63,529 bases of DNA from a bacterium. Lineage in GTDB: Bacteria > Lindowbacteria > 2-12-FULL-62-27. Below, piece by piece: positions 1,809-23,501 of the stretch. Position 1 is the first letter of the stretch. Each line of letters starts with the position of its first letter. The stretch covers positions 1 to 63,529 of the forward strand of contig JACQOF010000030.1 of assembly GCA_016202645.1 (NCBI GenBank), in the 5' to 3' direction. The notes under the pieces were generated by a model. It worked only from the letters and a program-made list of their open reading frames with translations, had not been told where the DNA came from and ran no database searches. The translations under genes and the position numbers were made by a program.

Positions 1809-1812
1809 GTAG

Positions 1813-4110: not shown

Positions 4111-4142
4111 TTGACATCCAGTCGAATGTCACGCATTGCGCC
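4111..4142 (+). repeat. Junction motif, copy 1
   Basis: TTGAC, eleven bases, then TGTCACGCATTGCGCC. The same two blocks with identical spacing recur at 19220-19251. Both copies sit where non-phage DNA gives way to phage DNA on the right-hand side of an insertion. Confidence 0.6.
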
Positions 4143-5331: not shown

Positions 5332-5689
5332 AGTCAGAGGGCCTTTGCGGGGTAGTCCCGTCGTCACGGCGACGGCGCCATCCGCGGGGACGGTGAATTT
5401 GTCGGAAGGTCAGGCGGTGTCGTTCAACGGGAGCTACACCGTCGCGCACAGTCCGGACGGGGCGGAAGTTCACGGGCAAGTGTTGGACAAGCTGGTGAAC
5501 AATGATGGGGCGCTGACGGCAGTTGTCATGAATGGCGTCCTGCGGTTTTCGTATGTGGGCGCGGCTCCCGTGGTGGGCCAGTCGGTTGTGGGGAGCGCGA
5601 CGGGCGGCAAGGTCAAGGCGGCGGCGACTGGTCGGTGGCTGGTCATTGCGGTGGACACGGCGACGTCGACCGTAGACGTGGAGAGGTGA
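5324..5689 (+). CDS. Capsid cement/decoration-like protein
   Basis: A 121-residue, Gly/Ala/Val-rich, strand-dominated protein between the protease-scaffold and the major capsid gene, nine bases before the latter. Repeated short strands (VTATAPSAGTV, VVGQSVVGSATGG, WLVIAVDTATSTV) resemble the small beta-barrel head-stabilising proteins encoded at this position in many tailed phages (for example DUF2190-type). No catalytic motif. The role is inferred from position and composition. Confidence 0.5.
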   Translation: MAKVRGPLRGSPVVTATAPSAGTVNLSEGQAVSFNGSYTVAHSPDGAEVHGQVLDKLVNNDGALTAVVMNGVLRFSYVGAAPVVGQSVVGSATGGKVKAAATGRWLVIAVDTATSTVDVER

Positions 5690-5697
5690 TCTGAAAC

Positions 5698-6744
5698 ATG
5701 AAAACAACGGAACTGATGGAAAAGATGGTCGACAAGATTGAGTTTTTTACGCAAGACGTTGGTGCGCTCAAAGACCTGCGAGGCGAGCGGCTGTACTTTG
5801 AGCTGAACCGGGTCGGGGCGACGTACGGGGAATACTTCAAGGTCACGGGAACGAACATCCGGGATTACTGCCGGGACCAGTTCAAGATCGATCTGCCAAA
5901 CTGCACGATCGAGAAGTTTTTCTCGTCGGATCCGAACGCGAAGTGGCTGTTTCCGGACGTCGTGCGGGAAGGCGTTCTCTCGGGCCTGCGGCACAGGCCG
6001 ATTCACAACCGGCTCGTGGCGAGCGAGGAAACGGCGGACGGTAATTCGTATCAGGTGCCTTACGTGGACGAGAAAGAGAACGAGGCCGAGGAGGAGGTCC
6101 GCGACGTGGCCGAAGGCGCGGACATTCCGGAGAGCGAGATCAAGTACGGCGACCGGATCGTCGTGATCGGCAAGAAGGGCCGCGGGATCATCGCGTCCTA
6201 CGAGGCGATGCGGCGGATGAAGATCGACATGCTCCGGGTGCATCTGGAGCGGATCGGTCAGCGGGTCGGGATCCAGCTGGACAATCGGTGTGGAGAAGTC
6301 CTGCGACTCGGCAACTCTACGGAGTCCGCGCCGACGGTGATTCCGGTCATCACGCCGGGCGCCCTCGTGTACGAGGATTTGACCGTGGGGTTCGTCGAAC
6401 TCATGGACAACCGGAACTTCACGCCGACCAACATCCTCTGCAGTGCGACGACCAAGCGGAAGATTCTCAACATGGCGGAATTCAAGGACCCGCTGGTATT
6501 CGATTTCGCGCGCACGGGCAAGACCCCAAGTCCCTTGGGTCTGACGCTCGACGCGCTTCGAGGCCAGCCGGACAACCAGGTGACGATCTTGGACAAGGCG
6601 TTCGCGGTCGTGAAGGTCACGGAAAACGACGTTACGGTGGAGAGCGACAAGCTCATTTCAAAACAGTGGGACCGCTCCTACATCACGCTGAACGTGGATT
6701 TCGCGATTCTGTACAAGGACGCACGGGTGGTGGTGCAGATTTAG
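5698..6744 (+). CDS. Phage major capsid protein
   Basis: A 348-residue protein directly after protease and cement genes. It has an acidic N-terminal segment, a central long helix region (EEVRDVAEGADIPESEIKYG, then IASYEAMRRMKIDMLRVHLE) and a strand-rich C-terminus ending DRSYITLNVDFAILYKDARV, the arrangement expected of HK97-fold coat proteins. VNVDFA/RVVVQI-type C-termini are common in this fold. It is the last phage gene before the 12-kb non-phage block; a following AGGAGG at 6745 suggests another phage gene once started just downstream. Confidence 0.75.
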   Translation: MKTTELMEKMVDKIEFFTQDVGALKDLRGERLYFELNRVGATYGEYFKVTGTNIRDYCRDQFKIDLPNCTIEKFFSSDPNAKWLFPDVVREGVLSGLRHRPIHNRLVASEETADGNSYQVPYVDEKENEAEEEVRDVAEGADIPESEIKYGDRIVVIGKKGRGIIASYEAMRRMKIDMLRVHLERIGQRVGIQLDNRCGEVLRLGNSTESAPTVIPVITPGALVYEDLTVGFVELMDNRNFTPTNILCSATTKRKILNMAEFKDPLVFDFARTGKTPSPLGLTLDALRGQPDNQVTILDKAFAVVKVTENDVTVESDKLISKQWDRSYITLNVDFAILYKDARVVVQI

Positions 6745-6949
6745 GAGGCGATATCTTCTGCGGCAAGCTAACTTGCGAGGGACATTCAGGGTGGGATGGA
6801 ACCGCCTCCGTTTATAACGTGTGTTTCGCTCACCAAATCGTACGGACGGACATCACATAGACCGCCGTCGGTTCGATCTGGCGGCCAGCGAGATTCGTCA
6901 GAATAGGAATCTGGATGGATCCTTCGAACCAGCAGGAAAAAAACGATCC
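6745..6949. other. Unassigned junction stretch between phage and non-phage DNA
   Basis: About 200 bases with no convincing gene. It starts with AGGAGG (a ribosome site without its gene), contains a small hairpin GCAAG-CTAA-CTTGC near 6761 and a TGGAACCGC string near 6800. The true left joint of the non-phage insertion lies somewhere here. Confidence 0.4.
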
Positions 6950-7080
6950 CCCACTCTGCACCCGTCAGCCAGACAATTTCCCGGCTGTCGATGAAGCCGG
7001 CGTATGAGACGTTGACCAGCGCCGTGAGCGCCAGCATAGCGGGAGAAATTGTCAGACAGAGGAAAGGCACGATCCATGCC
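6950..7080 (-). repeat. Left copy of 131-bp direct repeat (glycosyltransferase fragment)
   Basis: Read on -, it encodes WIVPFLCLTISPAMLALTAL and onward through VSYAGFIDSREIVWL, matching 18443-18573 without gaps at roughly 85 percent DNA identity by eye. The peptide looks like the last transmembrane segments of a GT-C-type membrane glycosyltransferase. The frame is not preceded by a start or by the rest of the protein, so this is a gene remnant. It directly follows the stop of the methyltransferase gene (7088). Confidence 0.75.
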
Positions 7081-7087
7081 ATGTCCC

Positions 7088-7795
7088 CTATCTCATTTGC
7101 TTTTTCCAAACCGTATTCCACTGCACAGTGACGGTTTTGGACATGTCCATTTGGATGAGCGATTTTCGCTCGGTCGGACATTGGATTATTTTAAAACCGT
7201 TCTTGCGGGCAAGATATGTCAGCTCGTCTTTCGAATAGTGATGGAACTTGACACGGCAGCCCGTGTCATACGACCGGAGGTAGGTCACGCCGCGTTTGGA
7301 TTCTGGCAGGTCGTGTTTTTCTCGAATGAAGCGGGCCGTTGGCGGGATGATTCGGATGGATCGAACTCGCAGAATGAATAATCCGCCTGGCCGGATCATC
7401 TGCGCGACCCGCGCAAAGGTTCGTTTGATGTCCGGCCAGCCGCCGAATTGAAGGGATTGGACCGACAGCGCGCAGTCGAACCGTCGGCGGTTGAGATTTA
7501 CCGAATGAAAATCCCCCTGGATGATATCCGCCTTTAAACCTTCCCTGGCCAATCGGGCTTTGGCTTGTTGAATGGCGGTATCGGTTAATTCAATGCCCGT
7601 GACTTCAAATCCCATTTGAATGAGCGGGATCAGATGCCGGCCGGAGCCGCAACCCAAATCGACGACGGTGCGGCCCATCCGCGTTTTGAACTTTTTGATG
7701 AATCCCATGATGGTCGGGTCGGGCCGAAGGCGCGCCCATCCTTTCCTGTGCCGGATTTCCCATGCGCGTTTGACGAGCGTGGTTCGAGGTGTCAT
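7088..7795 (-). CDS. SAM-dependent methyltransferase
   Basis: A 235-residue class I methyltransferase. Motif I reads VVDLGCGSGRHLIPL (about residues 36-50), followed by VTGIELTDTAI and GDFHSV (acidic binding residues) and MIRPGGLFILRV (motif IV region). I choose ATG 7795 because it overlaps the upstream ABC gene stop (ATGA), making it the last gene of the uptake operon. A longer frame to 7909 only reads into the ABC gene. Substrate is unknown; in a metal or chelate uptake operon it could modify a chelator, but that is speculation. Confidence 0.7.
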   Translation of the reverse strand: MTPRTTLVKRAWEIRHRKGWARLRPDPTIMGFIKKFKTRMGRTVVDLGCGSGRHLIPLIQMGFEVTGIELTDTAIQQAKARLAREGLKADIIQGDFHSVNLNRRRFDCALSVQSLQFGGWPDIKRTFARVAQMIRPGGLFILRVRSIRIIPPTARFIREKHDLPESKRGVTYLRSYDTGCRVKFHHYSKDELTYLARKNGFKIIQCPTERKSLIQMDMSKTVTVQWNTVWKKQMR

Positions 7796-10272
7796 TCTGC
7801 GGCGCGAACCAATTCCCGGGTGACCGGATGGCGGGTTGTTTGGATGACCTGTTCGGTCGGTCCGGCTTCCACGATCTCTCCCCGATCCAGAACAATCAGG
7901 CGGCCGCAAAATGCCCGGGCCAGGGCGAGATCGTGGGTGATCAGGAGATAGGACATTCGATGCCGGGATTGGAGATCGCGCATGAGCGCCAGAATTTCCG
8001 CGCCCGACGCTGAATCCAGCATCGACGTCGGCTCGTCGGCGATGATCAGACTCGGACGTAAAACAATCGCCCGGGCAAGAGCGACACGCTGGCGCTGGCC
8101 GCCGGAAAGTTGCGAGGGGAAACGGCGGCGGAATTGGTCCACCGGCGTCAGGCCGACATCTTCCAGCGCCTCGGTGACACGCCGGCGACGATCCTGCGGG
8201 CCTAAATCTCCGGTCGCGCCGTGAATCACCACCGGCTCGCCGACAATGTCCTCCACGCGCATGCCGGGATGGAGCGCGTCATACGGATCCTGAAAGATCA
8301 TGTGCATCCGGCCAAGGAGGGTTCGGCGGGCGCCGTGATTTAAATCCGTCACGTCCCGGCCTTCGAAAAAAATTCGGCCTGCCGTCGGGCGGATCAGCCC
8401 CATGATGATCCGGGCAATCGTGGTCTTGCCCGCGCCGCTCCTTCCGACAATGCCGACGGACTCGCCCTGCTTGACCTCAAAGCTGACGCCGTTTAACGTT
8501 CGCCGTTCCGCCCTGCCCGGCCACATGCGATCTGACACAAAAATTCGCGTGAGGTTGTTCACTTTGAGCAAAGCGGCATTGCCTTCGGCCACAACGGGGG
8601 CTGAAGGTTTTTCGGATGGCGCTGATCCGGCCGATGTCGGAGACATCGGCACTTGGGGCGTCGGAGACGCTGATCCGGCCAACTTGGAACAAGGACCCCG
8701 CTCGACGATTTTTCCGGAAACCATGACGGCAACGGTATCCGCCACTTGCCGGACCAGCCGAACGTCGTGCGAGATGAGAATCAAGCTCGTGCCGTGGCGT
8801 TTTCGGAGGTCATTCAGCAAGGAAATAATTTCCCGGCGCGTCACGGAATCAAGTCCGCTCGTCGGCTCATCCGCGACCACCAGGGCCGGGTTATTGGCCA
8901 GCGCCATCGCAATCACCACTCGCCGGCGCATGCCGCCGGAAAGTTCGTGCGGAAAATCCTCGGCCTGGCTTGCCGAAATCCCCACCTGTTCCAGTAGGCC
9001 CAGCGCCTGCCGGCGCGATTCCGGCCTGGACAGGGGACGATGAACCATCATCGCCTCCGCGACTTGTTCGACAATCGGGATCACCGGATTCAGGGCGTTC
9101 ATCGCGTTTTGGGGAATCAGGGACACCCGCCCGCCGCGGATGGGTCGAAGCTCGGAGGCGGTCAGGCCGAGAAGGTCGGTTCCTTCCAAAACGATTCGGC
9201 CTTCGACAATCCGGCCAGGCGGCCGGACTAAATGCAGAATCGACATGGCCAGCATCGTCTTGCCGGAACCGGACGGCCCTACGATGCCGAGGACTTCGTT
9301 GCGGTTGACGTCGAACGTCACGCCGTCGACCGCCTGGAACTCTCCGCGCGCGGTATCGAAAACCGTCACCAAGTTTTTCACGGACAGAAGACACTTTCCG
9401 TCGGGATGATCTTCAGACGATGACGGCATGGGACGATCCTTCGACGACCGGCGATGCGGCGCGTCGGCGGAATGAGCGCCGTCGGACAGGGCATGGCCGA
9501 TGAAAGCGAACGAGAGGATGGTCCCGGCGATGCAAAGCCCCGGCGGCAGGATCCACCAGAGCCACGCGTCCGTGAGGAACGCGCCGCGGGCGTTGGCGTA
9601 AAAAAGCGTCACGGCCCAGCTTTTATAGACGGGATCGCCCAAGCCGAGGAAACTCAATGAGGACTCATAAAAAATCGCGCGGTTGGCCGCCCGGACAAAC
9701 TGCGGGACCACAAGGGGGAAAATTACCGGAAAAACATGGCGAGTCATGATCCAGAAATTCCCGGCGCCCATCGCCCGCGCCGCCTGCACGTGTCCGCGCT
9801 CCCGAACGGAGAGAACCTGCGCGCGCAATTCTCTTGCGGGCCGCGCCCACAAAATCGCGCTCAAGACAAGAATCTCCATGCCAATTCCGGGCCCCAAAAA
9901 GACGCTGATGACAATGGCAAGCGGCAGAAACGGAATCGACAGCGCGCAGTCCACCACCCGCATGAGCGCGAAGTCCGGCCGGCCGCGGCAATATCCGCCG
10001 ACGAGCGCGGCGGCGGTTCCAAGAAACGTGACCAGCAGCGCCGTGAGAATTCCGACCGTAAGAGATGCGCGAGCGCCGTAGATGATTTCGCTTGCTAGAT
10101 CGTGTCCGACATCGTTTGTCCCGAGCCAATGTGAAAAACTCGGAGCCTCGAACGGCCGGCCCGTTGGCGTGTAGGGGTCGTAGGGGGCGATCAGCGGCGC
10201 GGCCAGCGCAAGACAGATCAACGCGCAGAGCATGATCAGACCCGCGCGTCCCAACCGGGAACGAGTCATCAT
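7792..10272 (-). CDS. DppC-DppD-DppF triple fusion: permease plus two ABC ATPases
   Basis: One 826-residue chain holds three normally separate parts of a peptide/nickel-class importer. Residues 1-275 are a DppC-type permease (LGTNDVGHDLASEIIYGARASL, EAA loop around ARAMGAGNFWIMTRHVFP). About 290-540 is a DppD-type ATPase with Walker A GPSGSGKT, signature LSGGMRRR and DEPTSGLD. About 575-826 is a DppF-type ATPase with GRSGAGKT, LSGGQRQR and DEPTSMLD. Linkers are short and charged or Pro/Ser-rich. Both ATPases keep all motifs, so the fusion looks functional. Its start overlaps the dppB stop by an ATGA joint. Confidence 0.85.
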   Translation of the reverse strand: MMTRSRLGRAGLIMLCALICLALAAPLIAPYDPYTPTGRPFEAPSFSHWLGTNDVGHDLASEIIYGARASLTVGILTALLVTFLGTAAALVGGYCRGRPDFALMRVVDCALSIPFLPLAIVISVFLGPGIGMEILVLSAILWARPARELRAQVLSVRERGHVQAARAMGAGNFWIMTRHVFPVIFPLVVPQFVRAANRAIFYESSLSFLGLGDPVYKSWAVTLFYANARGAFLTDAWLWWILPPGLCIAGTILSFAFIGHALSDGAHSADAPHRRSSKDRPMPSSSEDHPDGKCLLSVKNLVTVFDTARGEFQAVDGVTFDVNRNEVLGIVGPSGSGKTMLAMSILHLVRPPGRIVEGRIVLEGTDLLGLTASELRPIRGGRVSLIPQNAMNALNPVIPIVEQVAEAMMVHRPLSRPESRRQALGLLEQVGISASQAEDFPHELSGGMRRRVVIAMALANNPALVVADEPTSGLDSVTRREIISLLNDLRKRHGTSLILISHDVRLVRQVADTVAVMVSGKIVERGPCSKLAGSASPTPQVPMSPTSAGSAPSEKPSAPVVAEGNAALLKVNNLTRIFVSDRMWPGRAERRTLNGVSFEVKQGESVGIVGRSGAGKTTIARIIMGLIRPTAGRIFFEGRDVTDLNHGARRTLLGRMHMIFQDPYDALHPGMRVEDIVGEPVVIHGATGDLGPQDRRRRVTEALEDVGLTPVDQFRRRFPSQLSGGQRQRVALARAIVLRPSLIIADEPTSMLDSASGAEILALMRDLQSRHRMSYLLITHDLALARAFCGRLIVLDRGEIVEAGPTEQVIQTTRHPVTRELVRAAE

Positions 10273-11246
10273 TCCTTCACGCCCTGCCGTCGAACGCGCG
10301 GATCGATCAGAGGGTACGCCAGATCTGCCATCAAATTTGCGGCCAGCACGAGAAACACAATCAGAAGAAAAGCGCCCTGCATGACGGCGTAATCGCGGGC
10401 AAGAATGCTTTCATAAATCAACCGGCCGACGCCGGGGTACGCAAATACTGTTTCGACCACCACGTTGCCGCCGAGGAGCGTGCCCAGCATGACGGTGATG
10501 CTGGTGTAAATCGGCAGAAGCGCGTTGCGGAGCGCGTGCCGGAAAACCACGCCGCGTTCGCCGACGCCCTTGGCTTCGGCCATGACGATGTAGTCCTCCC
10601 GGAGCGCGGTAACCATCGAATACCGCGTGATGAGAAACACGCTCCCGACATGCGTGACGGTGAGCGTCGCCACCGGAAGAATGAGCCGCCGGACCACTTC
10701 GATGACCTGCGACATGCCGCCGGCCGCGCCAATCGGAACGGCGCCAAAGGCGGGCAGAAGTCCCAGCGTCACGGAAAAAACGCCGATGAGCATCATGGCG
10801 ACCCAGAATGCCGGCATGGAATCGAGGAGCATGACGAACGACAGAATTCCGATATCCTCTTTTTGGCCTCGTTTCCACGCGGCGAAAACTCCAAGCGTCA
10901 TGCCGAGGAGAACGCTGACGATCAGAGCGCTTCCGCCAAGAAGCAGTGTCCACGGCACGCGTTCGGCAAGGATTGCCGTCACGGGTTTGCCGAACCTCAG
11001 CGAAATTCCCCAGTCACCCGTCACGATGCCCGCCAGATAGCGCCCATATTGTTCGAGAATGGGGCGATCAAGGCCCACTTCGCTCAACAATTTCGCGCGC
11101 TCCGCGTCCGTGAGTTCGCTGACCGCCCGGCCGAGCAGAAAGTAAGCCGGATCGCCGGGCGCCAGACGCGGCAGGGCGAAGTTGATCGTCAACGCCACAA
11201 ACAGAGACAGGCCGTAAGCGAGGATTCGGCCGGAGAAACGATTCAT
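10269..11246 (-). CDS. Peptide/nickel-type ABC permease, DppB family
   Basis: A 325-residue inner-membrane permease. It has the DppB N-terminus (FALPRLAPGDPAYFLLG after the first membrane helix), the periplasmic region GLDRPILEQYGRYLAGIVTGDWG, and the C-terminal EAA loop EAKGVGERGVVFRHALRNAL. Start ATG 11246 is preferred over an upstream in-frame ATG at 11387 because an AAGG-type site precedes it and it lies eight bases after the dppA stop. It pairs with the permease part of the downstream fusion. Confidence 0.85.
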   Translation of the reverse strand: MNRFSGRILAYGLSLFVALTINFALPRLAPGDPAYFLLGRAVSELTDAERAKLLSEVGLDRPILEQYGRYLAGIVTGDWGISLRFGKPVTAILAERVPWTLLLGGSALIVSVLLGMTLGVFAAWKRGQKEDIGILSFVMLLDSMPAFWVAMMLIGVFSVTLGLLPAFGAVPIGAAGGMSQVIEVVRRLILPVATLTVTHVGSVFLITRYSMVTALREDYIVMAEAKGVGERGVVFRHALRNALLPIYTSITVMLGTLLGGNVVVETVFAYPGVGRLIYESILARDYAVMQGAFLLIVFLVLAANLMADLAYPLIDPRVRRQGVKE

Positions 11247-11253
11247 CGCCCGC

Positions 11254-12867
11254 CTACCTTTCCACAACATCCGCCGCGATTCCGGCGCGCGCGGAACGCG
11301 AAAGAAAAGACCATTTGTGCACGATGCCCTGACCGGGGACTTGCGCCCATCCCGCATACGCGCCGGGGCGGTAGGCCCAGTATTCATCCGGATAGTAAAG
11401 AATGAGACTCGTCGGAAATTCGTTGAACAATTCCTGCATCGCGAATCCCGCCTGCCTGCGTTCTTCCACCGATTCCGATTTTTGCCATCGTTCGATCAGG
11501 GCGTCCATTTCAGGATATGGGACTCCCTCCCGCCAGAGATATCCGGACTTGTGGGACATCACAAATTGGTCCGGGTCGGCGACGCTGTGCGGCGTGATGG
11601 ACGAAATCTGGATGTCGAAATCGTGCGCGCCGGCAAATTTTCGAAAGGCGCCCGGCTCGAGCGATTTGATCCTGGCCTTGAGGCCGACCGCGGCAAGTTG
11701 CGGCGCCAAGAGTTCGGCGGCCCGCACGTGCGTCGGTTCAGTCGAAGCCGCGGACAGTGTGATTTCAAAAGGCTTGCCGTCAGGCGATTCGCGAAACCCG
11801 TCGCTGTCGCGATCGACAAACGCGAGTTTGTCCAGAATCGCCCGCGATGCGGCCTGATCAAACGGAATGTGAATGCCGGATTTTGTCCACGGCGATTCCG
11901 GATGAGGATAGCCCATCGATCCGGGCTTCCCGCGGCCCAACACGATCGTCTCGACGAAACCATGCCGATCGACCGCCAGATTCAACGCCTTCCGAAATTC
12001 CTTGATCGAAAAGGGGAGACGCTTAAAATTCATGAGCGCCTCCACGCCTGAAAGGGCATGGGTCCGGACAACCTTGATCTCACGAATCCGGCGAAACGGC
12101 TCGATCAGTTCCGGCGGCAAAATCCTTGCGGCGGCGTCAATCTCGCCCGTCTTCAGCGCAATGAACGTGGTCGACGGATCCTTGATGATCGGCATCACGA
12201 TCTCGTCCACCGCCGGCGCGCCCAGAAAATATTCTGTGTTGGCCTTGAAACGATAAAACTGTTCGGCTGCGTGCTCGACCAGACGGTAGGGACCTGTTCC
12301 GACCGGCAGAGTGTCTGTAAAAGTTCGAGGCGCCGTGATTCCGTTCCAGACATGTTTCGGGATGATCGGCAGATCCGCCGCCGTCACGAGATCGAAGGCC
12401 GGGCACGGATCGGCGCAGACCACGGTCAGCGTCCGGCTGTCCTCCACGAAAACAGACTGCACGTTCGGAACTTTACTTGTGTGATGCGACCAGCGATTGA
12501 CCGGCCCGTCGCGGTAGTAATCGAATGTGAACTTCACATCGTCCGCGCCGAACGGAACACCGTCGTGCCACCGGATTCCCGAACGCAGGCGCACACGCCA
12601 TGTCCGGCTGTCCACCCTCCGAACGGATTCGGCCAGATGCGGCATCGGCCGGCCGACATAGGGCGAAGGCGCCATGAGTTTGTCGTACACCAACTCCAGC
12701 AGAAAATCCGAGTGCGCGTCGCCGGCCGTATAAGGCGTCACGTTGCCCGCGTCCCGTGGAATCGCAACCGTCAACCGGCGCGGCACCGGATCCGATGGAG
12801 GTTTGCCGCAGGACGCCAACGCCGCCGCGGCCGCGAAGAGAAGAACAAACGCCGCGTAACGATTCAC
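11254..12867 (-). CDS. Solute-binding lipoprotein of DppA/NikA family
   Basis: A 537-residue SBP_bac_5 protein. The N-terminus is a lipoprotein signal with lipobox LASC (Cys at about residue 20). Family motifs include LAESVRRVDSRTWRVRLRSG, RWHDGVPFGADDVKFTFDY, GTGPYRLVE and a C-terminal QELFNEFPTSLILYYPDEYW region. It should sit on the periplasmic face of the inner membrane and deliver a peptide, metal-chelate or nickel-type ligand to DppB and the DppCDF fusion. The gene follows the IspH-like gene by 12 bases in the same operon. Confidence 0.85.
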   Translation of the reverse strand: MNRYAAFVLLFAAAAALASCGKPPSDPVPRRLTVAIPRDAGNVTPYTAGDAHSDFLLELVYDKLMAPSPYVGRPMPHLAESVRRVDSRTWRVRLRSGIRWHDGVPFGADDVKFTFDYYRDGPVNRWSHHTSKVPNVQSVFVEDSRTLTVVCADPCPAFDLVTAADLPIIPKHVWNGITAPRTFTDTLPVGTGPYRLVEHAAEQFYRFKANTEYFLGAPAVDEIVMPIIKDPSTTFIALKTGEIDAAARILPPELIEPFRRIREIKVVRTHALSGVEALMNFKRLPFSIKEFRKALNLAVDRHGFVETIVLGRGKPGSMGYPHPESPWTKSGIHIPFDQAASRAILDKLAFVDRDSDGFRESPDGKPFEITLSAASTEPTHVRAAELLAPQLAAVGLKARIKSLEPGAFRKFAGAHDFDIQISSITPHSVADPDQFVMSHKSGYLWREGVPYPEMDALIERWQKSESVEERRQAGFAMQELFNEFPTSLILYYPDEYWAYRPGAYAGWAQVPGQGIVHKWSFLSRSARAGIAADVVER

Positions 12868-12879
12868 CGGACTAATCGT

Positions 12880-13785
12880 TCAGGCGGGCGCGACGGATGG
12901 CGAAATCTCATCGACATATTTTGCGACTTCGTCAATCGACCACTGCGGCACGGTGATTCCGCCGATGACTCCGACCGTCTCCGCATGCTCGAGCCATGCC
13001 GGCTGAATATCCTCCTTCCGGGAAATTCGGTGGATCCGGGCATGGACGGCCGAAGCCACCTCAAAGGAACTGCGTGAGCCGTCGCCGCCGTCGTTGATCA
13101 GAATCACCACGTCGGACTCCATCGCAACCCTCCGCGCGGCGGCCTGCCGATCATACGAGTCACTGCAGACCGTCTCCACAATTTTGACCGGTAACTGCCT
13201 CTGCCGGACGCGGTCCACGACCTTGCTCCACGTTTCGGTGTTGCCGGTCACCTGCCCGATCAACGCCAGCTTTTGTCCTTCCCGAACGGCAATCCCGTCG
13301 GCGTCTTCGGCCTTCTCCAATACCGTACAGCTCCTGCCGTGTTTAGCCGCCAGCCGCTCCGCCTCGGTGCAGTGATGACTGCCCTTGTTGCCCATGACCA
13401 GCAGATCGAATCCGTCCCTGGCAAGGCCTTCGGCCTGCCGATCCATCGTGGCGATGAACGGGCACTGAAAATCCTTCAACAGGTTCACGCCTTTTTCTTT
13501 CAGCTCGCTCTTCGTTTCCGCCGGGAACCCGTGGAATCCGAGCACTAGCCGATCGCCCGGTTTCAACTGCGCCGGATCGTGGACGACGGTGACGTTCCGA
13601 AGATTCGGGTACCGTTCCATGATATTGGGATCCTTGCGTTCAATCCGTTTCAGCGTGTCCCAGTCTCCCCCGGAATTCTGGTGAGCCGCAAGAAACGGCC
13701 CCTCTTTTTGGGCCGCCCTGTTCATTTTATCGTAGGCATTCACGATGCCGACGCACAATCCGATTTCGGACTTGATGACTTTCAT
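12880..13785 (-). CDS. IspH/LytB-like iron-sulfur protein, divergent paralogue
   Basis: A 301-residue protein with the three-fold IspH layout. Three cysteines expected to ligate an Fe-S cluster are present: LCVGIVNA (residue 11), DFQCPFI (about 108) and ETVCSDSYDRQ (about 208), as is the late VGVIGGITVPQWSIDEV strand. The substrate-binding residues of true IspH are altered: the GH..HPE motif reads GNKGSHHCTE, so the catalytic Glu position is not conserved, and the SxN pair reads differently. I infer an IspH-fold redox or cluster protein with another job. It lies between the TonB receptor and dppA in one operon, preceded by GGAAGG. Confidence 0.7.
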   Translation of the reverse strand: MKVIKSEIGLCVGIVNAYDKMNRAAQKEGPFLAAHQNSGGDWDTLKRIERKDPNIMERYPNLRNVTVVHDPAQLKPGDRLVLGFHGFPAETKSELKEKGVNLLKDFQCPFIATMDRQAEGLARDGFDLLVMGNKGSHHCTEAERLAAKHGRSCTVLEKAEDADGIAVREGQKLALIGQVTGNTETWSKVVDRVRQRQLPVKIVETVCSDSYDRQAAARRVAMESDVVILINDGGDGSRSSFEVASAVHARIHRISRKEDIQPAWLEHAETVGVIGGITVPQWSIDEVAKYVDEISPSVAPA

Positions 13786-13807
13786 GTGTCTCTGCCTTCC
13801 TTTCTTG

Positions 13808-15994
13808 TCAATACTCCGTCGTCAGCGCGAATTTGAAATTGATTCCCGGCTCGACGATCGGATTGAAATCGGTCTGAGCCGACGAGACCGACTCGCGGGT
13901 TAAATGGTTCTTGAACTGTTTGTTCAAAATGTTATCAACCCCGAGCGTCAGCCGCATCGGCCTCGCGCCGCCGTAGATTTTTTGCAAATCGACGCCGCCC
14001 CGCAGATCAAACACCGAGTATCCCGGCGTCCGAAACTCCGCGGTCGGATCGATCTGATTCTGCCGGTCGACCATCCGGCAGGCCAGTTCCGCGTCGAAAC
14101 GGCCGGCAGGATCGTCATGCCGGACGCCCGCCAGCGCCGTCATCGGCGGCGCCGCCGACATGGGCTTCCGGTCGGTCTTGTTCGTTCCTCTCACGTACGA
14201 GAGATTGCCAAACATCGTCCGGCCCCGTCCCAACGGCGCCGACCATTCGAGTTCGTATCCCTCGTATTCGACGCGTGAAACATTCTGCCTCTGGGTCACA
14301 TTGTTCCCCGCGAAGACGGTGTTCACGGACACGATGAGGTCCCTCACCTGCGTGATAAAATAGGTGAACCGGCCCCGGGCCTTCTTCGTGTGGAATCTAA
14401 ATCCTCCCTCGTACGTTTTCCCCTTTTCCGATTTCAATTCCGGATTCGGAATCTGCTTGACCGTGAAGCCGTATTTTTCCAGCGGCTCCGGCGCGCGAAA
14501 CGACGTGGCCGCGCTCAGGTTCAGATCGAGCGTTTCCGACAGGCGGTAGATCAGGCCGAAACTGCCGGTCCGCGCGTCCTCGGCGGTTCTGGGGTTGGCC
14601 TTCAGGATCGCGGTGGCGGCGGCGGTCGTCGCGGGCTCGAATTCCGTCTTGAAGACCGCGTGGTCATAGCGGCCTGTCGCCGTCATCGACAGCCGCTCCG
14701 TGGCCTCGATCTCGTCCTGGAAAAAAAGTCCGACGTCCTTGAAGATCGCGTCCGGGAAATCCTTCTTCGTCTTGTCGGTCTGATTGTTGAGCGATCCGTC
14801 CGCGTTGAAGTACTTGGCGATGGTGCGGGTGATGGTTCCATGCCGTTTGTCAAACACGAAATCCGATCCGAGGGTGAGGCGGTGTTTCAAATTTGTCAGT
14901 GCGCCTCGCGACGGCCTGCCGCCCCGGTCAACGTCGAAGACCGTAAACACATTGAGTCCCCACGTCGTCACAGGCGTGCTCTGAATGCTCGTCGTGTCCG
15001 ACCGCGTCTTGGAGCGGTCGATATGGTTCGGCGTCGATTTCTGTTTTTTGTAGAACCATCCGGCCCGCACGGGCGGAAGACCCTTCATCAGCTCTCTGCC
15101 CTCATAAAATACGCTCACGTCATCCTGATCGCCCGGATCGAACGTGCGGATGATGGTGGGCGGCCCGGGGGCGCCGAGGCCGTTGGGAAACCCGATGTTC
15201 TTTCCACGGATGATTTTCGCGGTGACGTCGAAATGGTGTTTCTCCGAATACTCGTATCCCGATTTGAGATCCATGCTGAAATTTTTGAACTGGCTGTTCT
15301 TGATGTCGCCCGCGGGCGTGCGCGTGTTGTCGGCGTCCCAGAAGGTCATCCCAAGGAGCGAATCGAACCCCGTCCGCGCGCCGCCAAGTTCCAGCCGGCC
15401 CCGGGCGTACTCGTTCACGGTGCTGTAGCCGGCGTTGGTACGCGCCTGCCACCGGAATGTTCCGTCCGGATTGGGTCTGGCGCGCCGCGTGATGACGTTC
15501 ACCACGCCGGTCAGGCCATCGCTGCCGTAGATGGACGAGCCCGCGCCGCCGCGGATGACTTCGATCCGCTCCACCTGATCTGGGTCAAACAGGGTAAACG
15601 TCCGGACCCGGCCGCCGCGCACAGGCTGGCCATCCACGAGCACCGGCACGCGGGCCTCCTGCGAACTCATGCCGCGGATGTTCACCTGCGTCCCCAGAAT
15701 CCCGTCGCGGCTCTGATGAACGCCCGGCATGTCCTTGAGCACGTCCGTCAGACTGTACGGCATCCGTTCCACGATGTCCTGCCTCGTCATGACGCCGACC
15801 GTGGCCGGCACCTCATCCACGGATTTTTCCAGCCGCGTCGCCGTCACCTGAACAGTCGGAAGGACGAACACCTCGTCCGACGATTGGGCCTCCTCTGCGG
15901 CGGCGGGAAAGGCAAACAGAATCAGAAATAGAATTTTTAAGAAAGTTGAAAATTGAAAATTGAGCATTGAGAATTGAGCCTCTTTCTTTTTCAT
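13808..15994 (-). CDS. TonB-dependent outer-membrane receptor
   Basis: A 728-residue receptor. After a signal segment ending FAFPAAAEE comes a TonB-box-like VFVLPTVQVTATR, then the plug (VGVMTRQDIVERMPYSLTDVLKDMPGV, NIRGMSSQEARVPVLVDGQPV, IEVIRGGAGSSIYGSDGLTGVVNVITR) and a C-terminal barrel. The C-terminus ends FALTTEY, with an aromatic terminal residue as in outer-membrane barrels. ATG 15994 overlaps the tonB stop (ATGA), fixing the start. Residues about 6-18 are encoded by a seven-base tandem repeat, which is odd for a signal peptide. The ligand is unknown, but the operon suggests a metal chelate or similar. Confidence 0.9.
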   Translation of the reverse strand: MKKKEAQFSMLNFQFSTFLKILFLILFAFPAAAEEAQSSDEVFVLPTVQVTATRLEKSVDEVPATVGVMTRQDIVERMPYSLTDVLKDMPGVHQSRDGILGTQVNIRGMSSQEARVPVLVDGQPVRGGRVRTFTLFDPDQVERIEVIRGGAGSSIYGSDGLTGVVNVITRRARPNPDGTFRWQARTNAGYSTVNEYARGRLELGGARTGFDSLLGMTFWDADNTRTPAGDIKNSQFKNFSMDLKSGYEYSEKHHFDVTAKIIRGKNIGFPNGLGAPGPPTIIRTFDPGDQDDVSVFYEGRELMKGLPPVRAGWFYKKQKSTPNHIDRSKTRSDTTSIQSTPVTTWGLNVFTVFDVDRGGRPSRGALTNLKHRLTLGSDFVFDKRHGTITRTIAKYFNADGSLNNQTDKTKKDFPDAIFKDVGLFFQDEIEATERLSMTATGRYDHAVFKTEFEPATTAAATAILKANPRTAEDARTGSFGLIYRLSETLDLNLSAATSFRAPEPLEKYGFTVKQIPNPELKSEKGKTYEGGFRFHTKKARGRFTYFITQVRDLIVSVNTVFAGNNVTQRQNVSRVEYEGYELEWSAPLGRGRTMFGNLSYVRGTNKTDRKPMSAAPPMTALAGVRHDDPAGRFDAELACRMVDRQNQIDPTAEFRTPGYSVFDLRGGVDLQKIYGGARPMRLTLGVDNILNKQFKNHLTRESVSSAQTDFNPIVEPGINFKFALTTEY
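15946..15980. repeat. Five tandem 7-bp repeats inside the receptor start
   Basis: On + the units are TTGAAAA, TTGAAAA, TTGAGCA, TTGAGAA and TTGAGCC. They lie between the receptor start codon and its hydrophobic signal core. Seven is not a multiple of three, so gain or loss of one unit would shift the frame. Confidence 0.8.
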
Positions 15995-16692
15995 TTCACG
16001 CGGACGCCTTCTTTGAGACTGAACTCCACCGGCACAACGCATATGCCTTCGATGGGCTTTGCCCCCCGCATCGCGGGAACGAACTTCCATCGCCGGACCG
16101 CATCCAGCGCGGCGCCGTCGAGAAGAGAAAAGTCGCTGGTCTTGTCGACGGAAACGGCCAGGACGCCGCCCGTTTCCGAAATTCGTACCTTGAGCAGCAC
16201 CAGACCCTCGGCCCACCGGCGGCGCGCCTCGATCGGATAATCCGGCGGCGGATTGTGGGAATAGGCCGGAAGAACGACGCGCATGTCCTGTGTCCCCTCC
16301 TCGGCCGATCCGGCAGTTTGCGTCACCTCGGTCGGTTCCGATGGGCTCTCCAGCGCCGGTTCGTCCGAGCGAGAAAATTTCGGGCCGACTGCCGCAGCAG
16401 GGATTATTTCTTCGACAGGCTTGACGGCCGGCTCCGCCATCGGCGGCGCCGGCCGGCTCGTTTGACGTTCAGGCTCGGTCCGGCGTTCGGATGCCTTCGC
16501 CTCCACCACCTCCAGCCAGATTCGGCCGACCGATGATTCGAGGGGAAGCTGCGCCGCCGTATGACGGGGCGGCGTAAAAATGAGGACGGCCGCATGAGAC
16601 GCCAGGGAAACGAGCAGGGCGACGCTCAAGATTCGGATGGAGCAGAGATCCGGCCAGCGGGCCGTGGCCTCCGGGTTGGAAAAAATGACCAT
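15991..16692 (-). CDS. tonB: TonB energy-transducing protein
   Basis: A 233-residue TonB-family protein. It has an N-terminal cytoplasmic stub and membrane anchor (SIRILSVALLVSLASHAAVLIF), a Pro/Glu-rich periplasmic spacer (about residues 65-140) and a C-terminal TonB domain with PPPDYPIEARRRWAEGLVLLKV and LDGAALDAVRRWKFVPA. It transmits proton-motive force from ExbB/ExbD to the receptor encoded by the next gene. It lies three bases after exbD and overlaps the receptor start. Confidence 0.9.
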   Translation of the reverse strand: MVIFSNPEATARWPDLCSIRILSVALLVSLASHAAVLIFTPPRHTAAQLPLESSVGRIWLEVVEAKASERRTEPERQTSRPAPPMAEPAVKPVEEIIPAAAVGPKFSRSDEPALESPSEPTEVTQTAGSAEEGTQDMRVVLPAYSHNPPPDYPIEARRRWAEGLVLLKVRISETGGVLAVSVDKTSDFSLLDGAALDAVRRWKFVPAMRGAKPIEGICVVPVEFSLKEGVRVK

Positions 16693-16695
16693 GAC

Positions 16696-17127
16696 CTAGG
16701 GCGTCGACGGCGACGCCGTTTCGAGGGAAATTTTTGCCAGGCCCGCCTGCCGGCAGGCATCCATCACCGCAATGACGGTGTCGTAACGTGCCGCCCGGTC
16801 GACAAACAGATAGACCTCACGGGCGGCGGGGAAGGAGGCCCGATGAGACTGAAGGCGGCCCGGCAGTTCATTTTTACTGACGCGCTCCTTGTTCATAAAA
16901 ATTTCGCCGGATTCGGTAATTGTCAACGTCAACCTATCGGCGCGGTCGGGGTCGGCGGCGACGGCGCCGGGCAGATGGACCTTGATACCGCGGTGGACGG
17001 TCATGTTGAGCATGCCGTAGAGAAGCACAGTCAGGATCAGAAAAATGGTGTCAATCATGGGGACCATGTCGATGTGGACGGACTCCTGCTCGGATTGGGC
17101 GTCGAAAAATCTTCTCCGGATTCTCAT
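16696..17127 (-). CDS. exbD: ExbD/TolR family proton-channel subunit
   Basis: A 143-residue protein with one transmembrane helix containing the essential Asp (VPMIDTIFLILTVLLYGML) and a periplasmic domain ending DTVIAVMDACRQAGLAKISLE, both typical of ExbD. Its start overlaps the exbB stop by four bases. Confidence 0.9.
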   Translation of the reverse strand: MRIRRRFFDAQSEQESVHIDMVPMIDTIFLILTVLLYGMLNMTVHRGIKVHLPGAVAADPDRADRLTLTITESGEIFMNKERVSKNELPGRLQSHRASFPAAREVYLFVDRAARYDTVIAVMDACRQAGLAKISLETASPSTP

Positions 17128-17759
17128 GGCGTGCGCGCTTTCTCATCCTCATTTTCCTCCGCCTCGTGAATGGCGATTTCCATATCCGCGAGGGCCGATT
17201 CCATCCGATGCCGGGCCCGCGAGACTTGGGACCGGAAAAAAATATGAAACACAAGTGTCGGCATGGCGATGATGAGCCCGAAGACCGTGGTGATCAGCGC
17301 CTGGGAGACGCCGGCCGCCACCTGCTGGACGTTTTCGACATGGCCTCCGAGCGCGTCAAAGGCCTGCACGATGCCGAGGACCGTGCCGAAAATTCCAAGA
17401 AGTGGCGACAGGGTGACGATGGCTTCAAACACCGGCATGAACTTTTTCATGTGGATGTAATGATCGGACGCGGACTGGTCGAGCGCGACGAAAAGGCTCG
17501 TGTGAGGCCCGCCGGCCCGAAGGCCGTCGTGGAACATCGAAAGGACGTAATCCTCCTTCCCCCGGCTACACAGATCGAGCGCCTCCGGGCGCCGGCCCGC
17601 GCCTACCATCTGCAATACTTGGCTTACATCCTGCGGCCGCTCACGCCGCCACACCCAGATCCAGAACCAGAGGCGCTCGAAAAAGAACGCCATCGACAGG
17701 AGCGAACACATGAGCAGAGGCCACATCACCGGCCCCCCGCGGTGGAAATACTCGATCAT
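17124..17759 (-). CDS. exbB: ExbB/TolQ family proton-channel subunit
   Basis: A 211-residue three-helix membrane protein with the MotA/TolQ/ExbB core: GPVMWPLLMCSLLSMAFFFE near the N-terminus and SPLLGIFGTVLGIVQAF followed by GVSQALITTVFGLIIAMPTL. ATG 17759 is chosen because GGAGGG sits eight bases upstream; a frame start at 17795 has no such site. It is the first gene of the uptake operon and faces the Fur-family gene across about 200 bases. Confidence 0.9.
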   Translation of the reverse strand: MIEYFHRGGPVMWPLLMCSLLSMAFFFERLWFWIWVWRRERPQDVSQVLQMVGAGRRPEALDLCSRGKEDYVLSMFHDGLRAGGPHTSLFVALDQSASDHYIHMKKFMPVFEAIVTLSPLLGIFGTVLGIVQAFDALGGHVENVQQVAAGVSQALITTVFGLIIAMPTLVFHIFFRSQVSRARHRMESALADMEIAIHEAEENEDEKARTP

Positions 17760-17787
17760 CCGCCATCCCTCCAAACGGTGTGGGACA

Positions 17788-17808
17788 AATTGCAATCAAG
17801 TGGCAATT
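17788..17808. promoter_or_regulatory. Candidate operator for the Fur-family regulator
   Basis: AATTGC, nine bases, then GCAATT: a perfect 6-bp inverted repeat 29 bases upstream of exbB, in the divergent region between exbB and the fur-like gene. Size and position suit a metalloregulator operator. Not a canonical E. coli Fur box. Confidence 0.4.
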
Positions 17809-17957
17809 ATGGGGCTGCTCGCTATTGCGGTCAAGGTGCCAAATAATATTACAAAAATTTCGCAATTTCTGATTTGGAGGGGATTCGTCGAAATCCAGCG
17901 AAACCGGCGTCATGCGCCTTTACCCTCACAACGCAGTTTGATAAAAATCAAAGCAAG

Positions 17958-18425
17958 ATGAAGGTCGACGAACCGGTCATGGGTAGAGTTGCGAAATTCA
18001 TCAAACAGAGCGGCCATTCGATGACGGGCCCGCGGTATGATGTGCTCAAGTTGTTGTCGGCCCCGGCCGCCCATTTTACCGCGGATGAAATTTACGCGGC
18101 GGTCGGCAAATATCGGGTCGATCGCTCAACTCTTTATCGGGTGCTCGATCTGCTTTGTGAACTTCGGGTCGTCCGCAAAGTCCCGGCCGGAAACCGCAGG
18201 CCCTATTACGAATTGTCGGAAATTTTCTCCGAAGACCACGCGCATCTGATCTGCACAAGCTGCAAGCGCCTCATCAATCTGCCCGAGGCCGCCCGTCTGA
18301 AACGACTGATATCCAGAATGGAGAAGCCAATCGGCAGGAAATACAATTTTAAAGTGTTGGGCAATCGGTTGGAATACCAGGGTCTATGCCCCGATTGCGC
18401 CCGTCCCCCCGCCTTGAAAGGATAA
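17958..18425 (+). CDS. Fur-family metalloregulator
   Basis: A 155-residue protein. The winged helix is at residues about 15-80 (TGPRYDVLKLLSA, FTADEIYAAVGKYRVDRSTLYRVLDLL) and a metal-binding C-terminal domain follows with EDHAHLICTSCKRLINL and a final CPDC, giving two CxxC pairs for structural zinc. ATG 17958 is preferred over an upstream in-frame ATG at 17874 because the family normally starts a few residues before this helix. Divergent orientation to the ExbBD-TonB-receptor operon suggests it controls that operon in response to a metal. Whether iron, zinc or nickel cannot be told from sequence. Confidence 0.85.
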   Translation: MKVDEPVMGRVAKFIKQSGHSMTGPRYDVLKLLSAPAAHFTADEIYAAVGKYRVDRSTLYRVLDLLCELRVVRKVPAGNRRPYYELSEIFSEDHAHLICTSCKRLINLPEAARLKRLISRMEKPIGRKYNFKVLGNRLEYQGLCPDCARPPALKG

Positions 18426-18728
18426 ACAGGCCGAGGACAACGCCCCACTCAACCACCGTCAGCCAGAGGATTTCCCGGCTTTCGATGAAGCCCGCATAGG
18501 ACACAATGACCAGCGCCGTGAGCGCCAGCAGGGCGGGAGAAATTGTCAGGCAAAGGAAAGGCACGATCCACGTCACATACCAGAGGTTGACGATCGGGGA
18601 GAGCGCGAGCGACGCAAAGAGCAGGATGAGGATGGCTCCGGCCACGCGGCGGGTGCTGTCAAATCTTTTTCGCGCGAGAAGCGCCATCAGGCCGAGAATC
18701 GCCGCGCCGCCGATGAATTTGGCCGCCT
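18426..18728 (-). pseudogene. Membrane glycosyltransferase C-terminal fragment
   Basis: The frame reads hydrophobic helices (AGAILILLFASLALSPIVNL, WYVTWIVPFLCLTISPALLA) typical of the end of GT-C polyprenol-dependent glycosyltransferases; WY.TW..PFL is a common motif there. An in-frame TAG at 18729-18731 precedes it, and the N-terminal catalytic part is absent. The 3' end runs into the tail of the fur-like gene on the other strand. It contains the right copy of the 131-bp direct repeat. Confidence 0.6.
18443..18573 (-). repeat. Right copy of 131-bp direct repeat
   Basis: Gap-free match to 6950-7080 in the same orientation (for example CCAGCGCCGTGAGCGCCAGC is shared exactly). The two copies bracket the uptake operon plus the Fur-family gene, 7088-18425. 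Confidence 0.75.
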
Positions 18729-18739
18729 AGGTTCCGATG

Positions 18740-19076
18740 GCGAACTTGATGATCCGAAAGAGAGCGGCGTGAGCGCCTCCGCCATCGTGCCACGTTCGGC
18801 GGCCGAGCCCGTGATGGCCGATTCGCCAAAAATTTCTGCGGGATTCAATATGTCGAGCGTCAATTTCCTGCCATCCTCCACCAGCCGTGAAATCTTGACA
18901 TGACCTTCTTTGAGCAGAAATACGGAGTCAGGTGTGTCTCCCGAAAAAAAGAGGATCCCCTTTTCCGGAAACGGCGCCATCGTCGTCATGTCCGCTATCA
19001 TCTGCATTTCCTCGCGCGAGAGTTCCGAAAAGAGATTAAATTGCTTCAGATACCAGAACTTCATCAATTCAGTCAT
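18740..19076 (-). pseudogene. Truncated CRP/FNR-like cyclic-nucleotide-binding domain
   Basis: From ATG 19076 the frame reads MTELMKFWYLKQFNLFSEL, then GILFFSGDTPDSVFLLKEGHVKISRL and LTLDILNPAEIFGESAITG, the cNMP-binding beta-roll of CRP/FNR regulators. After AEALTPL the homology stops (about 18765) and the frame runs into unrelated Ser/Pro/Arg codons. The C-terminal DNA-binding domain is missing. The gene was evidently cut at this joint, next to the glycosyltransferase fragment. Confidence 0.65.
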
Positions 19077-19219
19077 GGCAGGGAACGGCATCCTCCGCCA
19101 AAGAATGCCACACGAATCAACCACCCTGCGCCAAGAGCGCAGGGAATCACAAGTTTAACCGCTTGTATGAGAAATACGAATCAACACCCACGAGATGTAT
19201 ACGAGGTGGAAAATGATTC

Positions 19220-19251
19220 TTGACTTCCCATAAATTGTCACGCATTGCGCC
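19220..19251 (+). repeat. Junction motif, copy 2
   Basis: TTGAC, eleven bases, TGTCACGCATTGCGCC, identical in both blocks and spacing to 4111-4142. Phage DNA resumes immediately to the right, with AGGAGG and the ATG of a phage gene at 19269. Confidence 0.6.
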
Positions 19252-19268: not shown

Positions 19269-19676
19269 ATGGCATTACATTTTTTCAAGTCGGCTGGCGG
19301 GGTCGGTCCAATCGCCGACGACGCCGGACAATCCGGGGCGAACATTTTTGATGACGTGACGTTTGACGGAACGGGCGGTCAGTCGCGGGATCAGGGGCTG
19401 TTTGTTCGGAATTCGGACACTACGCGGCAACATCAAAACATTTTGATTACGATCGACGACAGCGATCCGGTGCTGGATCCGGCGATGGTGCGGTTGGCAA
19501 CGACTTCGGCGGGGTTGGATGGCGCCACGCCAGGGGCGGCGTTGACACTGCCGAACCTTGGGGCGGGGCCGAGCGAGACGCAGATGTTCGTGCGACTGAG
19601 CATTCCTCCGAGTACATCCGTCGGAAATTTTGTGGGGCTGCGACTCGTCATCAATTCGATCGAATTGGCCGTGTAA
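19269..19676 (+). CDS. Phage structural protein, unknown
   Basis: A 135-residue protein starting at ATG 19269, six bases after an AGGAGG-type site; an upstream in-frame start at 19245 would lie in the junction sequence. The chain is strand-rich, with NIFDDVTFDGTGGQSRDQGLFVRN and LFVRLSIPPSTSVGN-like stretches resembling virion surface proteins. It is the first phage gene right of the 12-kb non-phage block. Confidence 0.55.
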   Translation: MALHFFKSAGGVGPIADDAGQSGANIFDDVTFDGTGGQSRDQGLFVRNSDTTRQHQNILITIDDSDPVLDPAMVRLATTSAGLDGATPGAALTLPNLGAGPSETQMFVRLSIPPSTSVGNFVGLRLVINSIELAV

Positions 19677-19685
19677 ACAGACGCA

Positions 19686-21209
19686 ATGACAACGCCGGCG
19701 GAGCTACACCCGGATGGAGACTATTTCGCAGGGCTCAATTCCGGCGTTGTCGTTGTTTTTACGGACAGGGTTCTGGAAACGAAGGTCAATCCGTCGACAG
19801 GGCATGTCTGGCATGGGGTGATCAAGAGGGTCAAAGGGGGGTTCACGACGGGGCTTTCGATCAATCGATCGAACGGGTGGTTCACTCAGTTCTACCTCTC
19901 GTCGATCGGAGAGACGAACTCAGACAACGGACAGAATTTGCAGGTCTTCATCGGTTCACACAAGATTGTTTCCGTATTTTTTGTCAATGCAGACGGACCG
20001 GAATCGGGCGTGATGACGTTCACGATCGGGGGGGTGCCATCGGTAGGATGGTACTGGGTCCGGCCGCCAGGAGGAGATCCGCTGGCCGGGCGGGCGACAC
20101 ACGACGAATGGTTCAACTACGAAATGCTCGATTTTCTTTCCGATCCTGCCAGCACGACTCAACACAGTTTTTCGATTTCAGCGCCGAGATGGGTCGGTAT
20201 TCGCCAGAGCTACGCCGTGATGCGGGCATCGGTCACCCAAAATCAGAGTGTGCGCGCGGGCGTGGCTGTACAGGTTCGGGACACATTCACGCGGGCGAAT
20301 ACGACTGTGCGAATTGGAAGGCGGGCTGTAACACGCGCGGGGACAAAGGCAAGAGTTGGGCAGCACGTTCCAGTGAGGGTGTCGATTCGTGTGCGCGTCG
20401 GGGCCACGACACCGGTGCGGGCGGCGGTGGTGATTCACGTCGTCAACTCTATCGTCCGGGCGAAGATCAAGGCGAAGATCGGGAAGGTCGCGGGGGTGCA
20501 TGTCGTCGTCCGGGTGCGGGTGTTTCGGCAGAGTCGTATCGGCACGATCCTTCAAGTGCATGTCGTGTTCATCAACGTGGAGGATATGAAACTGCAGATG
20601 CAGATTCTGTTCGGCTCGGACACGGCGCTGGTGGTCAAGACGTTTACGACCGTGCCGGTCGTTACCGGCGTGGCGTTCACGCAGAATCTGGAGCATGTCC
20701 TGATTCTGCCGGGGACAGAAACCGTAAGGCGATTGAACGTGCCGGTATGGAGCGCCGCGGGTCTGTATGAAATCGATCATGTTCTCGGCCGATTTCGGTG
20801 GCTTGGCGAAAGCGCCGAATCCATCGAGCTGACTTACCGGCACAGCACCCTCCAGATCAATGACGCGAACATCGTGGGGTCGATCATCAAGGCGTCGTCG
20901 TTTATTCAGGAACGGTTGAAGCCCAACGCCAACTTGCCGGACCCGCGCTTTCGGCGAGGCGGAGCGGAACTGGCCATGTCGTTTCTGCTCGATGCGGCGA
21001 TTTGGAATGTCACGAACGCACTGTCGACGCAAGGCGGCGGCGCGGCTGTCGTCGGAACACGGCGGGTGGATCTGATGCAGACACAGAAACGGGAGTTCGA
21101 GCGCCGGGCTTACGAGACACTCGGGCCGTTTTTGGTGGATCCGGTTCCGGGAATGACGAGGCGCGCGGCGCTGGCGAGGCCGAAGGCTATCCAGGTGTAC
21201 GAGGGATGA
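19686..21209 (+). CDS. Phage structural protein with basic V-R-V repeat region
   Basis: A 507-residue protein in three parts. Residues 1-180 are a beta-rich domain. Residues about 180-300 are a remarkable run of short Val/Arg alternations (VRAGVAVQVRD, VRIGRRAVTRAG, VRVSIRVRVGATTPVRAAVV, VHVVVRVRVF), apparently repeats of about 15-25 residues and strongly basic. Residues 300-507 are a mixed domain followed by a helix-rich tail. The stop overlaps the terminase ATG. I do not recognise the family; position suggests a neck, tail or fibre component. Confidence 0.5.
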   Translation: MTTPAELHPDGDYFAGLNSGVVVVFTDRVLETKVNPSTGHVWHGVIKRVKGGFTTGLSINRSNGWFTQFYLSSIGETNSDNGQNLQVFIGSHKIVSVFFVNADGPESGVMTFTIGGVPSVGWYWVRPPGGDPLAGRATHDEWFNYEMLDFLSDPASTTQHSFSISAPRWVGIRQSYAVMRASVTQNQSVRAGVAVQVRDTFTRANTTVRIGRRAVTRAGTKARVGQHVPVRVSIRVRVGATTPVRAAVVIHVVNSIVRAKIKAKIGKVAGVHVVVRVRVFRQSRIGTILQVHVVFINVEDMKLQMQILFGSDTALVVKTFTTVPVVTGVAFTQNLEHVLILPGTETVRRLNVPVWSAAGLYEIDHVLGRFRWLGESAESIELTYRHSTLQINDANIVGSIIKASSFIQERLKPNANLPDPRFRRGGAELAMSFLLDAAIWNVTNALSTQGGGAAVVGTRRVDLMQTQKREFERRAYETLGPFLVDPVPGMTRRAALARPKAIQVYEG

Positions 21210-22834: not shown

Positions 22835-23501
22835 TTGGCCGATCCGGAAGATCGAGGTGGCAGACGTGTGGAAAGTGGTCCGTGGCCCCCTACGTGAATG
22901 GATCGGGATTGTTCTTCACCATGGGGCGGCCAATGCCAAGGCGGAGCGGCACGACATTCAGGCGTATGCGAATTTTCACACGTTGCCCGTCGCCCAAGGC
23001 GGGAGGGGATATTCGGACATGGGATACCATTTCGGGATCGAGGAGGATGGTGGGGTTTGGATATCTGCCGCGGGGACTGAATCCGACAGCACCCTACGAC
23101 GCCAGCTCCGCCCTCCCGGCTCCGCTGAAACATCGTCTTCGGGTGCGACGCCGTCCATGGCGTCGGCCCGGTGGATCCAGCAGAGGCCGGGGAGCCATAC
23201 GAAGGCGACAAAATCGTTGGACGGAAAAATCGTGATGCCTGCCGGCGTCAATTCATCGTGTGTCGGGATTTGTTTTGCGGGGAATTTTAACGATCAGGAA
23301 TTGTCACGCGCGGCGTTTGAGAGCGGGGTGCGGCTGTGCGTTGCGTTGCTGCGCGGCGGGATACACGAGAGTGCTGACGTGATCTACCCCCACAGCCGCT
23401 TTCAGGAAAAGGACTGCCCGGGCAAACGATTTCCGTTCGAGGAGTTTGTCCGGACTGTCTCGGTCGAGTTGAGACTTCGATCAGGGGTGACACAATCGTG
23501 A
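22815..23501 (+). CDS. Phage endolysin, N-acetylmuramoyl-L-alanine amidase (Amidase_2 fold)
   Basis: A 228-residue protein with amidase_2/PGRP signatures: IVLHHGA (first zinc His), FHTLP...GYSDMGYHFGIEEDGGVW, GICFAGNFN and a C-terminal H-x-x-FQEKDCPGKRFPFEEF (second His and Cys ligands). The preferred start is GTG 22815, overlapping the terminase end; the frame is open further upstream only as a shadow. Between GGVW and RPGSHT there are about 40 extra Ser/Ala/Pro-rich residues where homologues normally have a short loop. It cleaves peptidoglycan for host lysis and overlaps the holin gene. Confidence 0.8.
   Translation: MASSSGNWPIRKIEVADVWKVVRGPLREWIGIVLHHGAANAKAERHDIQAYANFHTLPVAQGGRGYSDMGYHFGIEEDGGVWISAAGTESDSTLRRQLRPPGSAETSSSGATPSMASARWIQQRPGSHTKATKSLDGKIVMPAGVNSSCVGICFAGNFNDQELSRAAFESGVRLCVALLRGGIHESADVIYPHSRFQEKDCPGKRFPFEEFVRTVSVELRLRSGVTQS

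Follow-up and report, generated by a model that had tools for sequence, protein, structure and literature searches.

We consider it probable, at odds of about two in three, that the metal-uptake cassette described here is cargo lying in a recurrent slot between independently promoted phage blocks of a prophage-like element, and that this slot was filled by captured host-type DNA. On this reading, an apparent mobile cassette flanked by repeats becomes a phage cargo slot occupied by an entire operon for nutrient uptake, whose size far exceeds the 1-5 kb of the defence hotspots of P2 and P4. The feature is real, ordinary in kind, and unusual in size and content. The window, that is the whole stretch of 63,529 nucleotides analysed, is the entire contig C146 of the MAG-type draft genome G000 (2.9 Mb, 146 contigs, 82% complete). 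For comparison, we used G000 together with G001 and G002, three genomes of this little-known phylum that are all drafts, G001 and G002 being members of the same family. Coordinates of the features are collected in Table 1.

Table 1. Phage blocks, slots, cassette genes and flanking fragments, with positions in the window.
Feature	Position	Strand	Match or remark
Phage block A: DUF6385-like, terminase small subunit-like, portal (1813-3165)	166..3165	+	G001:C17 41595-44569, 89% DNA
Phage block B: protease, decoration protein, major capsid (5698-6744)	4111..6744	+	
Block-head motif TTGACATCCAGTCGAATGTCACGCATTGC before protease	4111..4139	+	
Variable slot B/C: cassette and host-gene fragments	6745..19219	.	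Closed in G001 (90 bp); other genes border in G002
Left GT fragment (host membrane glycosyltransferase-like gene)	6943..7087	-	89.7% to C111:2330-2474
Class I SAM methyltransferase	7088..7909	-	
ABC importer: NikC-like permease and two NikD/E-like ATPases, one 826-aa ORF	7792..10272	-	
NikB-like permease	10269..11387	-	
Substrate-binding protein SBP_bac_5 (NikA/Opp type)	11254..12867	-	
Divergent LytB/IspH-like protein	12880..13785	-	
TonB-dependent outer-membrane receptor	13808..16216	-	
TonB, ExbD, ExbB energising complex	15991..17795	-	
Fur-family regulator, divergent from operon	17874..18425	+	
Right GT fragment, one in-frame stop	18422..18770	-	84.8% to C111:2315-2663
5' part of crp/fnr-like gene, fused to right GT fragment	18766..19080	-	75% to C7:8786-9101
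Second block-head motif copy, directly before block C	19220..19248	+	
Phage block C: two proteins of unknown function, terminase large subunit, amidase, holin	19272..24231	+	
Slot C/D cargo: Lamassu LmuA/B/C and nucleotidyltransferase	24286..29535	-	
Block D: ArdC, PD-(D/E)XK exonuclease, RepA-like, others	29578..38158	-	29578-34605 87-91% DNA to G001
Tyrosine integrase, element end, beside tRNA-Thr 39888-39960	38745..39851	+	

In the window, blocks A to D, the integrase and the tRNA follow one another in one order within 40 kb. As the initial annotation had noticed, late phage genes surround the cassette: the portal, protease, decoration protein and capsid to its left and the terminase large subunit, amidase and holin to its right. 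The capsid and portal proteins are 96 and 95% identical to those of G001, and 94 and 91% identical to those of G002. Purifying selection acts on the portal, capsid and terminase genes (dN/dS 0.05-0.09; 0.055 for the capsid against G001). The G002 capsid gene is gap-free when aligned in frame, yet contains one in-frame TAG. Two short in-frame inserts were seen in these genes: one of 26-28 aa, with the pattern TLRR.LRPPG.AET...GA.PSMAS (23066-23164), belongs to the G000 amidase and is missing in that of G001, and a related one (L036 9119-9197) occurs in the G001 terminase and is missing in that of G000. The gap between portal and protease contains a 251-aa ORF in a stretch of 43% G+C with no family match (3276-4031), which is probable recent cargo.

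The junction between blocks B and C differs in each of the three genomes. In G001, the capsid gene is followed 90 bp on by the counterpart of the gene at 19272 of the window, the gap containing a strong hairpin. This is the uninterrupted phage arrangement that had been proposed as something to look for in a relative. Blocks D, C and B remain together there, and the order and orientation on both sides match G000. In G002, AddA and AddB, encoded on the other strand, come directly after the capsid gene, and block C is found on another contig, preceded by a helicase/PLD defence-like set with ZacB/ZacC and DISARM-like matches; as the two sides of the junction lie on separate contigs, the G002 slot is not closed. 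The other gaps vary as well. The portal-protease (A/B) gap measures 0.9 kb in G000 and about 0.7 kb in G002; in G001 it has about 26 kb of non-phage genes (pilus/secretion-type genes, lepB and tRNA-Val). Slot C/D holds Lamassu and a nucleotidyltransferase in G000 versus about 1.1 kb in G001. Like moron and defence hotspots, the B/C junction has conserved phage genes on both sides and contents that differ among relatives, G002 being read from two contigs only. For G001, the probable element end is another integrase (26% identity), which lies beside tRNA-Tyr. Elsewhere in G001, on contig C35 (L038 10925-11100), a 3' piece of the capsid gene stands alone, 176 bp long and with the same end base, near AddAB-type and conjugation-type genes, which suggests a decayed second capsid copy.

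The same promoter-like motif stands at the head of block B and of block C in both G000 and G002. It is 29 bp long and follows the pattern TTGACNT-N9-TGTCACGCATTGC, and the copies before the protease contain the inverted repeat TGACAT-N8-ATGTCA. Five zero-mismatch copies were found in the three genomes (two in G000, two in G002 and one in G001), all of them at block starts, and the reversed motif used as a control gave no matches in the same genomes. At the B/C junction of G001, no block-head motif precedes block C: either it was lost by deletion there, or the slot is not ancestral. The simplest reading is that the motif would act as a phage promoter or operator, each block forming a separate unit. 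Since block C has its own motif in G000 and G002, it is probably a separate transcription unit, and the earlier wording that the cassette interrupts the late operon, correct as to its place among the late genes, is too strong.

Direct repeats do bracket the uptake cassette from the methyltransferase to the Fur gene, as first reported. They span 6949-7081 and 18443-18575 (133 nt, 86% identity, same orientation, 11,494 bp apart, E=1e-36) and are clearly the longest repeat pair within 5000-21000. Each is part of a 3' fragment of the same glycosyltransferase-like (GT) gene, a name given by reading the sequence and tentative as a family assignment; the window GT fragment had no match in Pfam. The left fragment abuts the methyltransferase stop (7088), and the right one begins at the Fur stop (18423-18425) and extends beyond the repeat first described, so that the two are unequal in length (145 and 349 bp). 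A third homologue, overlooked in the initial annotation, is intact on contig C111 of the same genome as the gene of a 586-aa membrane protein, and an orthologue is present on contig C4 of G001. Over the shared core of 129 bp, the two fragments have 18 differences, 13 of which are at third codon positions (chance expectation one third; binomial P about 0.0009). Over the same 129 bp, the left fragment differs from the intact C111 gene at 10 positions and the right one at 15, and uninterrupted identity extends over at most 24 bp between the two fragments and 44 bp against C111.

This third-position bias indicates that both repeats diverged as coding genes before their arrival and do not form a pair duplicated on site. 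On-site duplicates would have diverged as remnants without such a bias, so the fragments come from two already different alleles of a working gene. The right GT fragment overlaps by 5 bp the crp-like fragment, which consists of the first 104 codons of that gene, and this fusion makes the flanks look like debris of the host chromosome. In G001, the GT and crp-like genes are on one contig, about 29 kb apart and in the same orientation; a deletion in such a chromosome would yield the fusion. Judged from their sequence, the repeats are incidental host-gene debris and not a recombination device. A long target-site duplication, also considered, was discarded on the codon-position bias, the unequal fragment lengths and the third homologue. 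We also asked whether gene fragments litter this genome generally. In a self-comparison of 0.74 Mb, the matches listed were mainly repetitive surface-type proteins and dispersed repeats of 80-110 bp, so that, judged from these, debris of the GT or crp type does not seem to be a general trait. A dispersed repeat of ~80 bp (77-99% identical copies at 46539-46620 and 47859-47926, and in L073, L076, L094, L101 and others) sits inside ORFs of different genes and in different frames, twice in the AddA-like gene, and resembles in-frame palindromic elements like those of Rickettsia. More generally, codon-position bias between flanking repeats offers a fast test to tell gene-fragment debris from true duplication scars.

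The cassette is mostly on the strand opposite to the late genes and carries its own regulator. With SBP_bac_5, two permeases and two ATPases, it has the components of a nickel/metallophore ABC importer. By its gene content, the operon should import a metal or a metal chelate across both membranes, and the neighbouring Fur probably controls it; upstream of exbB, no strong Fur box was found, the best score being not unusual. As in Nik/Opp-type nickel/metallophore importers with TonB-dependent receptors, SBP_bac_5, NikB/C/D/E-like proteins, TonB-ExbBD and the receptor occur together, in one operon beside Fur, but here NikC, D and E are in one ORF, and the operon also includes a methyltransferase and a divergent IspH-like protein. 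The IspH-like protein falls short of IspH (HMBPP reductase) itself, with 113 bits against a cut-off of 276 and the catalytic HPE motif aligned to SHH; by inspection, GLCVG, FQCPF and TVCSD retain the three expected iron-sulphur cluster cysteines. The search for the cassette elsewhere, which the initial annotation had proposed, gave nothing: the cassette is missing from both family members, G001 and G002, the IspH-like protein has no close relative in 386 genomes, GTDB contigs and plasmids, and a scan for the receptor was empty. The tetranucleotide profile of the cassette is native (correlation 0.952 versus a mean of 0.928 for genome pieces). A foreign origin is therefore unsupported by composition, and with a profile typical of the genome, a same-lineage donor is more likely than a distant one.

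Altogether, we propose the following course of events. With separate promoters for blocks B and C, insertions between the two would be tolerated, and DNA could accumulate there without silencing the downstream block. The B/C slot would have taken up a host-type chromosomal segment consisting of the complete TonB-dependent uptake operon with the GT and crp-like fragments at its ends. As different alleles, the two GT fragments would differ in the time of their joining or in their donor, and illegitimate end joining or deletion is the most likely route. This suggests a simple rule, namely that a promoter of its own for each late block lets a prophage-like element accept large inserts.

Other explanations have to be weighed against this one. 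The initial annotation held that the repeats were left by single-crossover integration of a circle or by a tandem duplication, and that the cassette could be excised by recombination between them. The repeats are indeed direct and near the cassette ends, and the site is closed in G001. However, either mechanism would start with identical repeats, and those found here are about 14% divergent, mostly at third codon positions, unequal in length, and, as two members of a trio of host-gene homologues, each separately related to the intact C111 copy. Nor does the cassette have the make-up of an att-flanked integrative element, the repeats being only 86% identical and no recombinase gene being found within 7088-18425. 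Excision by recombination between the repeats is unlikely because they have at most 24 exact bases in common. The codon-position bias, as read from the sequence, largely refutes this origin, which we regard as highly improbable.

A misjoin of chromosomal and prophage contigs during metagenome assembly would fit a draft in 146 contigs at 82% completeness, the several joints with unrelated gene fragments and the host-like composition of the cassette. It would nevertheless require two wrong joins with matched orientation, in a place where the order and orientation of the blocks on both sides agree with G001, where block C is headed by its own motif as in G002, and where the search for a long identical repeat capable of misleading an assembler gave only 24 bp between the fragments and 44 bp to C111; we hold it quite unlikely. 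A chromosomal rearrangement could also have scattered the phage blocks, the cassette then being ordinary chromosome between prophage pieces and not phage cargo. Host-gene fragments at the flanks, host-like composition, the presence of lepB, tRNA-Val and pilus-type genes in the A/B gap of G001, and the location of blocks B and C on different contigs in G002 all point in this direction. Against this, G000 keeps its blocks, integrase and tRNA in a single order over 40 kb, G001 still has D, C and B side by side, and the GT neighbours in C111 and on the G001 contig C4 are not cassette genes, so that this explanation, too, is unlikely.

If the cassette is cargo in a phage slot, the kind of element that carries it is of interest. 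The accessory (moron) and defence hotspots of P2-like phages and P4-like satellites measure about 1-5 kb and contain mainly defence genes (Rousset et al. 2022, PMC9122126). The slots described here have in common with them high-turnover genes between two conserved phage genes and the presence of defence genes (Lamassu here, ZacB/ZacC-like in G002), but they differ by an 11-kb nutrient-uptake operon, by their place between head-gene blocks, and by the common promoter-like motif of these blocks. Capsid-forming PICIs carry an integrase, capsid, protease, portal and both terminase genes, and are without tail genes (PMC10690885). The element here likewise has an integrase, capsid, protease, portal and both terminases, the match of the small subunit being weak. 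No tail gene was found by PHROGs among the proteins tested, nor did inspection of the stretch from block A to the integrase in G001 reveal one, no element having been seen complete. The element may be a degraded prophage. More speculatively, and in our view with rather doubtful standing, it could be a head-only integrative element spread through the family (genes for capsid, packaging and lysis but not for tails), with blocks under a common palindromic promoter and slots for large defence or nutrient-uptake cargo, serving as a capsid-forming satellite or a gene-transfer-agent-like vehicle for host DNA. Such a possible head-only carrier is a more interesting lead than the repeats. In contrast to the capsid-forming PICIs, the element has an amidase, a holin, a RepA-like gene and a very large cargo, and no helper is known.
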